Shown: positions 57,603-60,478 of the stretch, piece after piece | Layout of the letters: each line of letters starts with the position of its first letter | Numbering within the stretch: position 1 is the first letter of the stretch | Assembly (NCBI GenBank): GCA_021737975.1 | Contig: JAIPCZ010000011.1 | Coordinates: 1-60,478, forward strand | Direction: 5' to 3' | Length of the DNA: 60,478 bases | Origin: Polaromonas sp. | GTDB lineage: Bacteria > Pseudomonadota > Gammaproteobacteria > Burkholderiales > Burkholderiaceae_C | The notes under the pieces: generated by a model | Database searches by the model: none | The model's input: only the letters and a program-made list of their open reading frames with translations | Told to the model about the DNA's origin: nothing | Program-made: the position numbers and the translations under genes

Positions 57603-58910
57603 ATGCGCATCGAACGTTTTCTGACTGGCATCACCACCTCGGGCACGCCCCATCTGGGCAACTACGTGGGCTCGATTCGCCCCTCCGTGGGCCACAGTCT
57701 GCGCCCTGGCGTCGAGAGTTTCTACTTTCTGGCCGATTACCACGCCCTGATCAAGATCGATGATCCACAACGCATCCAGCGCTCCACGCTGGAAATTGCC
57801 GCGAGCTGGCTGGCATGCGGCCTGAATCCGGACAAAGTGGTGTTCTACCGCCAGTCCGACGTCCCCGAGATCCCCGAACTCACCTGGTTCTTGAGCTGCG
57901 TGCTGGGCAAAGGTGTGCTCAACCGCGCACATGCCTACAAGGCTTCGGTCGACAAAAACACGGCGGCCGGCAACGACCCCGACGCCGATGTCAATGTGGG
58001 CCTGTTCATGTACCCGGTGCTGATGGGCGCCGACATCCTGATGTTCAACGCGCACCAGGTGCCGGTGGGTCGCGACCAGGTGCAGCACATCGAGATGGCG
58101 CGCGACATGGCGCACAGCTTCAACCACCGTTATGGCGAGCATTTTGTCGCACCCGAGGCCGCCATCGAAGAGCATGTCGCCACCCTGCCCGGCCTCGACG
58201 GCCGCAAGATGAGCAAAAGCTACGACAACACCATCCCGCTGTTTGCCCCGCGCGAGCAGCTCAGAAAGCTCATCGGCAGCGTCGTGACCGACTCCCGTGC
58301 CCCGGGCGAAGCCAAGGCGGTGGAGGGCTCGACCCTGTTCCAGATTTACCAGGCCTTTGCCAGCGCCTCCGAGTCCGAAGCCCTGCGCCAGGCCTATGCC
58401 AGGGGCATTTCGTGGGCCGATGCCAAACAGCTCGTTTTTGAGCGCATTGACCAGGAAATTGCGCCCATGCGCGCGAGCTACCAGGCCCTGATCGACAACC
58501 CGGCCAAGATCGAAGCCATCCTGCAAGACGGCGCCGCCAAGGCCCGGGCCATTGCGACCCCCTTCATGGGCCAACTGCGCCATGCCGTGGGGCTGCGCCC
58601 GCTGCAAACCCATGCCAGCACGAGTGCCAAGGCAGTGAAGCAGGTGCTGCCGGTGTTCAAGCAATACCGCGAAACAAACGGCCAGTTTTACTTCAAGCTG
58701 CTTAGCGGCGACGGCACGCTGCTGCTGCAAAGCGGTGCCTTTGCATCGCCCAAAGTGGCGGGGCAAACCATCGCCGCGTTGCAGGCAGAGGGCATCACCG
58801 CCCTGAGCAGCAGCCCGGTGACGCTGGAAAAAGGCCCGGAGGTCACAGAATCTGACATTGCAATCGCCTTGCAAGCCCTGCAAATTGCCAAGGAAGCCAA
58901 ACCAGGCTAG
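57603..58910 (+). CDS. trpS: tryptophan-tRNA ligase
   Basis: 435 residues. HIGH-type TSGTPHLGNYVG (PHLGN), GADILMFNAHQVPVGRDQVQH split around the substrate site, and KMSKS in GRKMSKSYDN. It is about 100 residues longer than E. coli TrpS because of a C-terminal extension (about 345-435), as in other betaproteobacterial enzymes. Last housekeeping gene before the disrupted tRNA locus. Confidence 0.95.
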   Translation: MRIERFLTGITTSGTPHLGNYVGSIRPSVGHSLRPGVESFYFLADYHALIKIDDPQRIQRSTLEIAASWLACGLNPDKVVFYRQSDVPEIPELTWFLSCVLGKGVLNRAHAYKASVDKNTAAGNDPDADVNVGLFMYPVLMGADILMFNAHQVPVGRDQVQHIEMARDMAHSFNHRYGEHFVAPEAAIEEHVATLPGLDGRKMSKSYDNTIPLFAPREQLRKLIGSVVTDSRAPGEAKAVEGSTLFQIYQAFASASESEALRQAYARGISWADAKQLVFERIDQEIAPMRASYQALIDNPAKIEAILQDGAAKARAIATPFMGQLRHAVGLRPLQTHASTSAKAVKQVLPVFKQYRETNGQFYFKLLSGDGTLLLQSGAFASPKVAGQTIAALQAEGITALSSSPVTLEKGPEVTESDIAIALQALQIAKEAKPG

Positions 58911-58937: not shown

Positions 58938-58977
58938 GGAGAGATGGCAGAGTGGCCGAATGTACCTGACTCGAAAT
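58938..58977 (+). tRNA. 5' half of a split tRNA-Ser(CGA) gene
   Basis: GGAGAGA acceptor strand, TG, a D-arm with GGCCGAA, then CCTGA and the anticodon loop CTCGAAA (anticodon CGA). After ACTCGAAAT the sequence turns into ACAGGCTAAAAACGC, not the expected CAGGCGTACC, so the variable arm, T-arm and 3' acceptor strand are missing here. They lie on the minus strand at 60346-60402. Joined at the core the two pieces give a complete 88-nt tRNA with a 7-bp acceptor stem, CCTGA/TCAGG anticodon stem and GTACC/GGTAC variable arm. As the DNA stands this copy cannot make a mature tRNA. Confidence 0.93.
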
Positions 58978-59005
58978 ACAGGCTAAAAACGCTGAAACCC
59001 GCATG
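58965..59005 (+). other. left recombination site (att core and arm)
   Basis: CCTG-ACTCGAAAT-ACAGG at 58965-58982; the 9-bp core 58969-58977 is the tRNA anticodon loop. AACCCGCATG at 58996-59005 recurs at the right site at nearly the same distance from the core (18 and 17 bases). Confidence 0.85.
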
Positions 59006-59033
59006 AACGCTAGCTTTTAGCGGTTTTGTGCAG

Positions 59034-59098
59034 CTACACAAAGGCTACACAATTTTCACACTTGGGAGTAAGATTTAGTTCTCACTCTTTTTGTGTAG
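59034..59098. repeat. arm-type CTACACA repeats, left
   Basis: CTACACA at 59034-59040 and 59045-59051 (11 bases apart) and its reverse TGTGTAG at 59092-59098, just before the recombinase start. The same heptamer recurs at 60299-60305, 60461-60467 and 60472-60478. Their paired spacing and fixed distance from the cores (about 60 bases) fit integrase arm-binding sites. Confidence 0.7.
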
Positions 59099-59102
59099 CC
59101 AA

Positions 59103-60296
59103 ATGAACGCTGAAAAGTCCCTCCCAACGCACACCATTCTCGAAGGCAAAGTGCATGTTTTCATGCGTGAGGGGTCTCCATATTGGTGGGGTGGCTTTCA
59201 CTTCAAAGGCAAGTACCTTCGCACTTCGACCAAGCAAAAAAACAGCGATGCTGCTGACGCTATGGCGAGTCAGTGGTACTTCAAAAAGCAAAATGAAATT
59301 GCAAGTGGTCAGATCGCGTCGCCAAAACACGCGTTCGACAAGTTGGCAGAAGACGCACTGACAGCATACAAGGGACTTGTCTCGCGAGGCATCAGAAGTC
59401 AAAAAACATTCGATGGCATCGAGGGCATCATGCGTTCGCGCATCATGCCGTACTTCAAGAAAATGGCCGTCATCACCATCGACAACACGACATGGCACAA
59501 GTTCAAAGAAGACATGGTGAAAGAATATCCTCTGATCAAACGAGGCACGCTTCATCAGTACAAGAATTCAATTCGCGTCGTTCTCAACCAAGCTTACAAG
59601 CTTGGCTACATCAAAGAACTGCCCGTCTTCAAAGACGAATACACAGCAAGGCGAATCGACTCACCACGGCCGTGGTTCAACTCGGCTGAATACAACAAAC
59701 TTCATCGCGCCATCTTGGCCCACGCAAAGAAGCTACAAAAAAGGGACAGACTTCTTTACGAGCATGCCATGGAGCTTTATGACTATGTGATCTTCGCTGT
59801 AAACACGGGAATGCGCGTTGGGGAGATGAAAAATCTCAAGGTCTCAGATGTCAAGATCGTCAAGGAGCAACTGACAGCCAAAGACATTCTGATGATCAGC
59901 AACATTAAAGGCAAGCGAGGAACGGGAAGTTGTCAGAGCTTCTACGGCGCTGTCGCGCCATTCAATCGCGTTCTTGAGCGACGCGCCATCAAAGAGCCAA
60001 GCAAGTGCGACGAGCCACTTTTTCTGATCCATCACAGAACGATGCTCAACAAGATATTGGTCAAGTCTGACTTGAAGATGTCGAAGACCAATCCACCATC
60101 AAAGCGCGACTCTGTTTCATTCAGAGCGACCTACATCTGTTTTCGACTGCTCAATGGAGTCCCTATCTACGAGATCGCCAACAACTGTCGAACCTCAGTG
60201 GCTGTGATTCAAGAATCGTACGCACGGCACTTGGGCGCACATATGCTACGCAATATCAATCGCGTGGGGAACAAAGTCGAGGGTTGGGATTACTAA
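59103..60296 (+). CDS. tyrosine recombinase (integrase) inside the split tRNA locus
   Basis: 397 residues from the ATG at 59103 (the frame opens at a TTG 12 bases upstream). N-terminal SAM-like core-binding region (about 75-170). Catalytic domain with box I R238 in NTGMRVGEMKNL, box II R341 in SVSFRATYICFRLL, and the nucleophile Y373 in QESYARHL. Both usual histidines of box II are missing (SxxR where HxxR is typical, and RA where RH is typical), so it belongs to a divergent branch. Base composition is clearly more AT-rich than the neighbouring genes, a sign of transfer. It is flanked by two inverted att cores in the halves of a tRNA-Ser gene and by CTACACA arm sites, which mark it as the enzyme acting here. 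Confidence 0.88.
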   Translation: MNAEKSLPTHTILEGKVHVFMREGSPYWWGGFHFKGKYLRTSTKQKNSDAADAMASQWYFKKQNEIASGQIASPKHAFDKLAEDALTAYKGLVSRGIRSQKTFDGIEGIMRSRIMPYFKKMAVITIDNTTWHKFKEDMVKEYPLIKRGTLHQYKNSIRVVLNQAYKLGYIKELPVFKDEYTARRIDSPRPWFNSAEYNKLHRAILAHAKKLQKRDRLLYEHAMELYDYVIFAVNTGMRVGEMKNLKVSDVKIVKEQLTAKDILMISNIKGKRGTGSCQSFYGAVAPFNRVLERRAIKEPSKCDEPLFLIHHRTMLNKILVKSDLKMSKTNPPSKRDSVSFRATYICFRLLNGVPIYEIANNCRTSVAVIQESYARHLGAHMLRNINRVGNKVEGWDY

Positions 60297-60298
60297 GT

Positions 60299-60313
60299 CT
60301 ACACATTGCGTAG
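60299..60313. repeat. CTACACA / TGCGTAG pair after the recombinase gene
   Basis: CTACACA at 60299-60305 faces TGCGTAG at 60307-60313, 3 bases after the stop codon. Related to the arm repeats; in the flipped orientation it would lie just downstream of the restored tRNA. Confidence 0.5.
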
Positions 60314-60345
60314 AACTCGGCGCTATATAAAAAATAGCAGTGAAG

Positions 60346-60402
60346 TGGCGGAGAGAGTGGGATTCGAACCCACGGTACCTTGCGGTACGCCTGATTTCGA
60401 GT
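60346..60402 (-). tRNA. 3' half of the split tRNA-Ser(CGA) gene
   Basis: Read on the minus strand: anticodon-loop core ACTCGAAAT, then CAGG, a variable arm GTACC-GCAA-GGTAC, a T-arm GTGGG-TTCGAAT-CCCAC and TCTCTCC-GCCA. The acceptor strand pairs perfectly with GGAGAGA of the 5' half at 58938. The genomic CCA is encoded. After the CCA comes CTTCACTGCTATTTTTTATATAG, whose T6 tract (TGCTATTTTTTA) may be the tRNA terminator. Confidence 0.93.
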
Positions 60403-60429
60403 ACAGGACGATGCGTCACAACCCGCATG
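60390..60429 (-). other. right recombination site (att core and arm)
   Basis: On the + strand CCTG-ATTTCGAGT-ACAGG at 60390-60407: the core is the reverse complement of the left core, while CCTG and ACAGG lie on the same sides. AACCCGCATG follows at 60420-60429. TGTGTAG arm repeats follow at 60461 and 60472. Confidence 0.85.
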
Positions 60430-60460
60430 TCTATTGGCTTTCAAGACGGTAATAATATTT

Positions 60461-60478
60461 TGTGTAGTTAATGTGTAG
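60461..60478 (+). repeat. arm-type TGTGTAG repeats, right
   Basis: Two TGTGTAG copies 11 bases apart, as in the left pair. In the reconstructed attP (left flank reversed next to right flank) all four are direct repeats and both pairs are about 60 bases from the core. The window ends here, so further copies cannot be excluded. Confidence 0.65.

Follow-up and report, generated by a model that had tools for sequence, protein, structure and literature searches.

A tRNA-Ser(CGA) gene that lies in two halves of opposite orientation, with a tyrosine recombinase gene between them, raises the question of what rearrangement produced this layout and what it means for the tRNA. The locus sits near the end of a 60,478-nucleotide stretch of Polaromonas sp. 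DNA (the window), which is the whole of contig C31 of genome G000, a metagenome-type assembly of 2.61 Mb in 66 contigs that is 69.5% complete. We consider it likely, though well short of certain, that the window shows one terminus of an integrative element, with an attL that splits tRNA-Ser(CGA) after trpS at the anticodon loop. The body of this element was most likely inverted, with its own integrase as the probable agent; the exchange points would be the anticodon loop of a tRNA gene carried by the element and the far attachment site. The features concerned are the following; G030 is a congeneric genome with a related element.

57603..58910, plus strand: trpS, chromosomal, upstream of the split tRNA gene (ORF of 435 aa).
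58938..58977, plus strand: chromosomal tRNA-Ser(CGA), 5' half, with the shared core as its last nucleotides (40/40 nt identical to the intact tRNA).
58965..58982, plus strand: attL, CCTG-ACTCGAAAT-ACAGG, consisting of host anticodon-stem arm, core and element arm (read from the sequence; the same in G030).
59034..59098, no strand assigned: three copies of CTACACA/TGTGTAG (59034, 59045, 59092), kept in G030, which may be the arm-type sites of the integrase side (P').
59103..60296, plus strand: tyrosine recombinase (integrase, int) of 397 aa (ORF from ATG; an upstream TTG start lies at 59091).
60299..60305, plus strand: CTACACA motif 3' of int (motif search).
60346..60402, minus strand: 3' half of the tRNA-Ser(CGA) that the element carries; it converges on int and includes the core at 60394-60402 (57/57 nt identical to the intact tRNA; a complete tRNA stands at the same position in G030).
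60403..60478, minus strand: the other element attachment arm (attR-left, P arm), with an ACAGG repeat and two TGTGTAG motifs (60461, 60472), reaching the contig end (window 60346-60478 aligns with the attR on contig C2 of G030).

The window contains exact matches, on opposite strands, to two pieces of the intact 88-nt tRNA-Ser(CGA), its first 40 nt and its last 57 nt; the recombinase gene lies between them and the break is at the anticodon loop, as the first-pass annotation had described. Perfect identity over 40 and 57 nt is much more than chance could give. The pieces have 9 nt in common, ACTCGAAAT, found at 58969-58977 and inverted at 60394-60402, which confirms the inverted cores proposed there, and an ARAGORN scan of the window (60,478 nt) gives no complete tRNA. 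Each core has the host anticodon-stem arm on one side and the element arm CCTGT/ACAGG on the other: the right site, read on the minus strand, is CCTGT-ACTCGAAAT-CAGG and the left site is CCTG-ACTCGAAAT-ACAGG. The motif CTACACA/TGTGTAG occurs six times in the 60,478-nt window, all six within 59034-60478, and recurs in G030; its tandem pairs on both element arms form the arrangement expected of arm-type integrase sites and probably serve as such. The contig ends 76 nt beyond the second core. Two inverted sites enclosing a segment with its own recombinase, as in invertible DNA, are therefore present, and it was rightly remarked in the earlier reading that a simple insertion would have left the cores in direct orientation; DNA inversion explains the arrangement best.

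The recombinase matches Pfam PF00589 with an E-value of 3.7e-5 and 24 bits, under the cut-off of 27.1, and the PHROG integrase family with an E-value of 7.7e-16. A structure model built from a 26-sequence alignment (mean pLDDT 84.9, pTM 0.53) has XerA, Tn1549 Int, XerH and Cre as its closest folds in the PDB, and no PDB chain was matched by a sequence-profile search. The PHROG match and the fold search agree with the tyrosine-family integrase first assigned. Relatives at E≤1e-20 occur in three of the 89 genomes of the genus, namely G000, G030 (95% identical) and G077 (29%), and at E≤1e-60 no relative beyond the window's own was found in 399 genomes of the family and 399 of the order. The genome_contigs collection yields one locus, which is G030's own contig CAIRAW010000054.1 (a metagenome-assembled uncultured betaproteobacterium). 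The viral_contigs collection yields none by a first scan and one distant locus (38%) by a second, and no match to the att patterns. Plasmid records contain four matches at 29–33% identity, and 50,697 phage records contain none at E≤1e-10. Metagenomes hold 296 homologues; among the 120 listed, 109 are of at least 390 aa, and many of these stand alone on contigs that barely exceed the gene. The DNA outside the ORF spans 150–299 nt in 23 of these 109 and less than 150 nt in none, and the commonest span is near 190 nt, compared with 240 in the window. Such contigs give the impression that assemblies stop at set positions on either side of the gene.

The simple layout of this element is found in G030. 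In the genus tRNA-Ser(CGA) commonly stands after trpS: of 29 trpS loci taken from other genomes, 19 have it there according to ARAGORN, 18 of these on the strand of trpS. Contig C54 of G030 carries, in order, trpS, a tRNA 5' half, ACTCGAAATACAGG and int. Next comes a complete tRNA-Ser(CGA) gene that converges on int and has upstream DNA of its own (C54:4906-4993, ARAGORN). Contig C2 carries element DNA, the attR CCTGT-ACTCGAAAT-CAGG and a tRNA 3' half that ends in CCCACCCTCCGCCA and is decayed: the congener form, CCCACCCTCTCCGCCA, has 2 nt more. The layout thus runs from trpS and the 5' half through the core to int, the converging complete tRNA gene and the element body, and from there to the arm, the core and the chromosomal 3' half. 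Neither attL nor attR of G030 holds a complete tRNA, and the host tRNA is not rebuilt. Two types of half can be told apart. Those of the element tRNA (GGAGAGA...TCTCTCC) go together, while the 5' half on the chromosome, with GGAGAGG, and the 3' half at attR, with CCCACC, belong to a second type and match one another; this pairing of half types indicates that G030 has the unexchanged layout. At the far end, window 60346-60478 is 88% identical to the C2 attR over 133 nt, the 3' half included.

G030 is 97% complete, and the element tRNA is the only tRNA-Ser(CGA) found in it. Ten of its 42 tRNA matches are long (at least 82 nt); these include Ser TGA, CGA, GCT and GGA once each, the CGA copy being the element's. 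A tRNA-Ser(UGA) that may read UCG is present, so the element tRNA may or may not be needed for stable integration. About 9 kb of the element body could be seen, with matches to a clamp-loader-like protein, a serine invertase and DUF6641, and no structural phage gene appears among the nine of the 14 listed ORFs that were scanned. We speak of this betaproteobacterial element as an integrative element, of which a temperate phage is one possible kind. Contigs C54, C55 and C56 of G030 begin with an identical 141 nt, which is an element end near the serine invertase gene. The non-coding stretch beside the replacement tRNA (G030 L048:4700-4905) is conserved in six of the 89 genomes of the genus; its places include G007 C70 and C311, G072 C208, G077 C10 and C96, G073 C72 and G030 C7, some of them with no tRNA in the fetched flank.

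A second tRNA-Ser(CGA) gene in G000, which the first-pass annotation had proposed to look for, does exist. It is intact and lies at C15:98899-98986 on the minus strand, 299 nt from the contig end; five of the 21 tRNA matches in G000 are long, and this is the sole Ser(CGA) among those five. With its upstream region it is 88.5% identical to the element tRNA of G030 and its upstream DNA over 192 nt, tRNA included. C15 therefore shows an element-type promoter and 5' half joined to a 3' half with no int after it. The tRNA 3'-half pattern (up to two mismatches) occurs at two places in G000 and two in G030. The C15 tRNA, the element tRNA of G030 and the chromosomal tRNA of G003 are identical over 88/88 nt, so the sequence gives no clue to where either half of a G000 copy came from.

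The DNA around the C15 copy was compared with that of relatives. No synteny link was found between the genes downstream of it and trpS in relatives, and the downstream region is unlike the trpS and attR neighbourhoods of G003 and G030; a downstream regulator gene has its best relatives in G028 and G030, on contigs other than those with trpS. The neighbourhood downstream of tRNA-Ser(CGA) varies among the species compared. Matches to the element body DNA of G030 are limited, within G000, to the tRNA ends on C15 and C31. The end of C15 shares a 135-nt IS-like end with the start of contig C8, where it interrupts a GGDEF-like ORF; on C15 the IS-like sequence is located upstream of the tRNA. It resembles an IS terminus, presumably of the IS66 type.

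The window ends with the 3' half of the element tRNA joined to the far attachment arm, and C15 carries the complementary junction. Together the two junctions are what one exchange between the element tRNA and attR would leave as reciprocal products, and as these two sites are inverted to each other, the product of such an exchange is an inversion of the body. C31 and C15 would then be linked by the unassembled body, the 3' half on C15 would be the original chromosomal one, and the exchange itself was presumably driven by the integrase. Of the readings offered for the window at first, an island whose int end had flipped comes closest: a flipped island is what we favour, and comparison with G030 indicates that it was the body of the element, past the contig end, and not the 1.4-kb int segment that moved. 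The reservation that the 3' half might belong to a different insertion also holds in a sense, in that G030 identifies this half as part of the element's copy of the tRNA and not the host's. The inverted layout is seen in one genome and the simple layout in one, and the two are of different species.

The same inversion could have arisen with no part played by the integrase. The element tRNA and attR share a 57-bp inverted repeat, made up of the core and the tRNA 3' half, over which homologous recombination could have acted. The two 57-nt copies are inverted and 57/57 identical, and the product would look alike; as the exchanged stretch is identical in all copies, both routes leave the same sequence. 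Against this, an integrase gene adjoins the site, together with arm motifs and an attB-type core that matches, and 57 bp is short for efficient RecA-type recombination. We hold this route to be unlikely, with a minor but real chance.

We think it rather less likely still that the tRNA on C15 is an independent second tRNA-Ser(CGA), such as another element's, and not the partner of the window junction. In its favour, the genome is incomplete and the genes downstream of this copy are not trpS neighbours in the relatives checked. An element-type promoter and 5' half set on a 3' half with no int is, on the other hand, precisely the reciprocal product, and the 3'-half pattern occurs at only two places in G000.

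An assembly artefact would require that a short-read assembler swapped the two 57-nt repeat copies, the true layout being the simple one of G030. The fragmented, metagenome-type assembly speaks for it, as does the position of both odd junctions inside a single repeat at the ends of contigs; the pair seen on the window and C15 is just what a reciprocal mis-join would produce, and neither stranded tRNA fragment has accumulated a single mismatch. To set against this, we compared 63 contig-end pieces of G000 (40 starts and 20 ends as fetched, both window ends and the C15 end). Contig ends of C5 and C8 share 136 exact nt, and the end of C15 and the start of C8 share 135, which implies that the assembly word size exceeded both the 57-nt repeat and the 88-nt tRNA. 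The common 141-nt start of C54, C55 and C56 likewise indicates that the G030 assembly resolves the 88-nt tRNA, and the end of C15 is explained by the repeated IS-like sequence it has in common with C8. We hold an artefact to be improbable. The window contig ends at 60478, 133 nt past the repeat boundary and near the 135–136-nt overlaps of other ends; this end could reflect a branch from both layouts in the sample, among other possible causes.

The switch proposed in the first-pass annotation, in which the 1.4-kb int segment flips between the cores and turns the tRNA-Ser(CGA) gene on and off, can hardly be right. The inverted cores do enclose int, an inversion between them would indeed join the halves into a complete tRNA, and the metagenome homologues among the 120 listed of 296 are often alone on contigs slightly longer than the gene; the commonest extra-ORF span of these, near 190 nt, is not the 240 nt of the window. 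The intact copy on C15 means that the tRNA is not off in G000, and for the tRNA itself orientation-dependent expression is contradicted by the presence of an intact tRNA-Ser(CGA) in both layouts. Going by G030, the 3' half belongs to a second, complete tRNA gene, and no reversed int segment was found in the genus, where int occurs in the three genomes named above.

Simpler insertions were also considered and set aside. Plain insertion of a 1.4-kb element is rejected by the inverted cores; a classical tRNA-restoring island is rejected, since attL continues with ACAGG and int instead of tRNA and attP restores nothing; and separate insertions at each tRNA half are unneeded, as the one element of G030 has the same ends.

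The favoured reading, inversion of the element body through the element's own tRNA, can be written in symbols, where B and B' are the two halves of the host tRNA, b and b' those of the element tRNA, P and P' the arms of the element, and a slash marks each junction. G030 would be B/P'-int-b'/b-body-P/B' and G000 B/P'-int-b'/P-body-b/B'. The inversion first drawn on paper would give B/b'-int-P'/P-body-b/B', and a fourth layout would be B/b'-int-P'/b-body-P/B'. By half-site counting, each integrated layout has three junctions; P and P' can disrupt no more than two of them, which would leave one complete tRNA or more in every layout. In the G000 layout attL (B/P') and an attR-type site (P/b') would now be inverted to each other, so that, judging from the map, the reaction that normally excises the element would turn the 1.4-kb int segment round and leave the element integrated. 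With a spare tRNA in direct orientation, these reactions could remove parts of the element.

Elements that split tRNA-Thr(CGU) occur in the genus at three loci (G077 C96, G073 C72 and G035 C476). Each has a host 5' half broken at the anticodon loop and next to it int, which is truncated in G073; a complete replacement tRNA-Thr(CGU) follows, identical over 76/76 nt across the three loci. Their integrases are 26–29% identical to that of the window and, unlike in the window element, the replacement tRNA lies on the same strand as the host half. The loop flanks of the replacement, CTTCGTAAG, differ on both sides from those of the host, ATTCGTAAT, and with this alteration the replacement may no longer be an integrase target. 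That an inverted spare keeps attB and a direct spare is altered is a rule we put forward as a hypothesis from few cases. On G017 C123, a tRNA-Ser(CGA) 3' half lies beside a different integrase (25% identical), with no complete tRNA on the contig. Among the distant matches, ordinary islands are also found in relatives, at tRNA-Ala(CGC) in G078 and tRNA-Pro(CGG) in G094, with displaced 45-nt 3' fragments.

We suggest tentatively, as a possibility we would not yet back, that the window element is self-targeting. Its replacement tRNA would act as an inverted attB, so that the integrase could shuffle the four integrated arrangements, turning excision into inversion and producing chimeric host/element tRNAs while always leaving at least one intact tRNA; the sister elements would avoid this through a tRNA in direct orientation with altered loop flanks. 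The problem exposed is that a spare tRNA can be the target of the element's own integrase, and two solutions are visible, an inverted spare, through which self-recombination inverts and cannot delete, and an altered spare. The locus offers a test case for an element locking into the chromosome and for tRNA genes built from host and element halves.

The closest published counterpart is tRNA-dependent lysogeny, in which, according to the part of the account available to us, actinobacteriophages split a tRNA that is not rebuilt and supply a cognate one (Guerrero-Bustamante and Hatfull 2024, PMC10865867). The cores in Table 2 of that paper are about 8–17 bp, and it also cites prophage Lj965 of Lactobacillus johnsonii. 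The likeness extends to a tyrosine integrase, an attB within a tRNA, a short core (9 bp here), a tRNA rebuilt at neither junction, and a complete tRNA of the same isotype encoded by the element, seen directly in G030 and deduced for G000 from C15 and C31 together. Unlike those actinobacteriophages, the element here is betaproteobacterial and its replacement tRNA keeps an unchanged attB in inverted orientation; inversion through the phage tRNA is not described in the available part of that source. Our case adds a betaproteobacterial tRNA-destroying, spare-carrying element to the actinobacteriophage cases of 2024 and the single cases elsewhere, and adds sister cases with unrelated integrases within one genus.

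Sinorhizobium meliloti prophages inactivate tRNA-Leu(UAG) and carry a similar tRNA, with two like cases reported, and the sections available of that study state that no evidence exists for prophage tRNA genes acting as new integration sites (PMC11476347). They describe no self-inversion either, unlike the element here, where the evidence suggests that the element tRNA served as a new site. Inversion reactions of archaeal recombinases have been reviewed (PMC8371274, consulted in part), and among the titles and abstract openings covered, a partial sample of the literature, we found no description of an element inverting through its own replacement tRNA. In classical tRNA islands, as the available part of the Islander paper has it, a tRNA fragment in attP restores the gene (PMC4383910). 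The window element resembles these islands in its tyrosine integrase and in a crossover at the anticodon loop, a known sublocation in that source, and it differs from them in that its attP, as deduced from G030, lacks a tRNA fragment and a separate whole tRNA gene takes its place.
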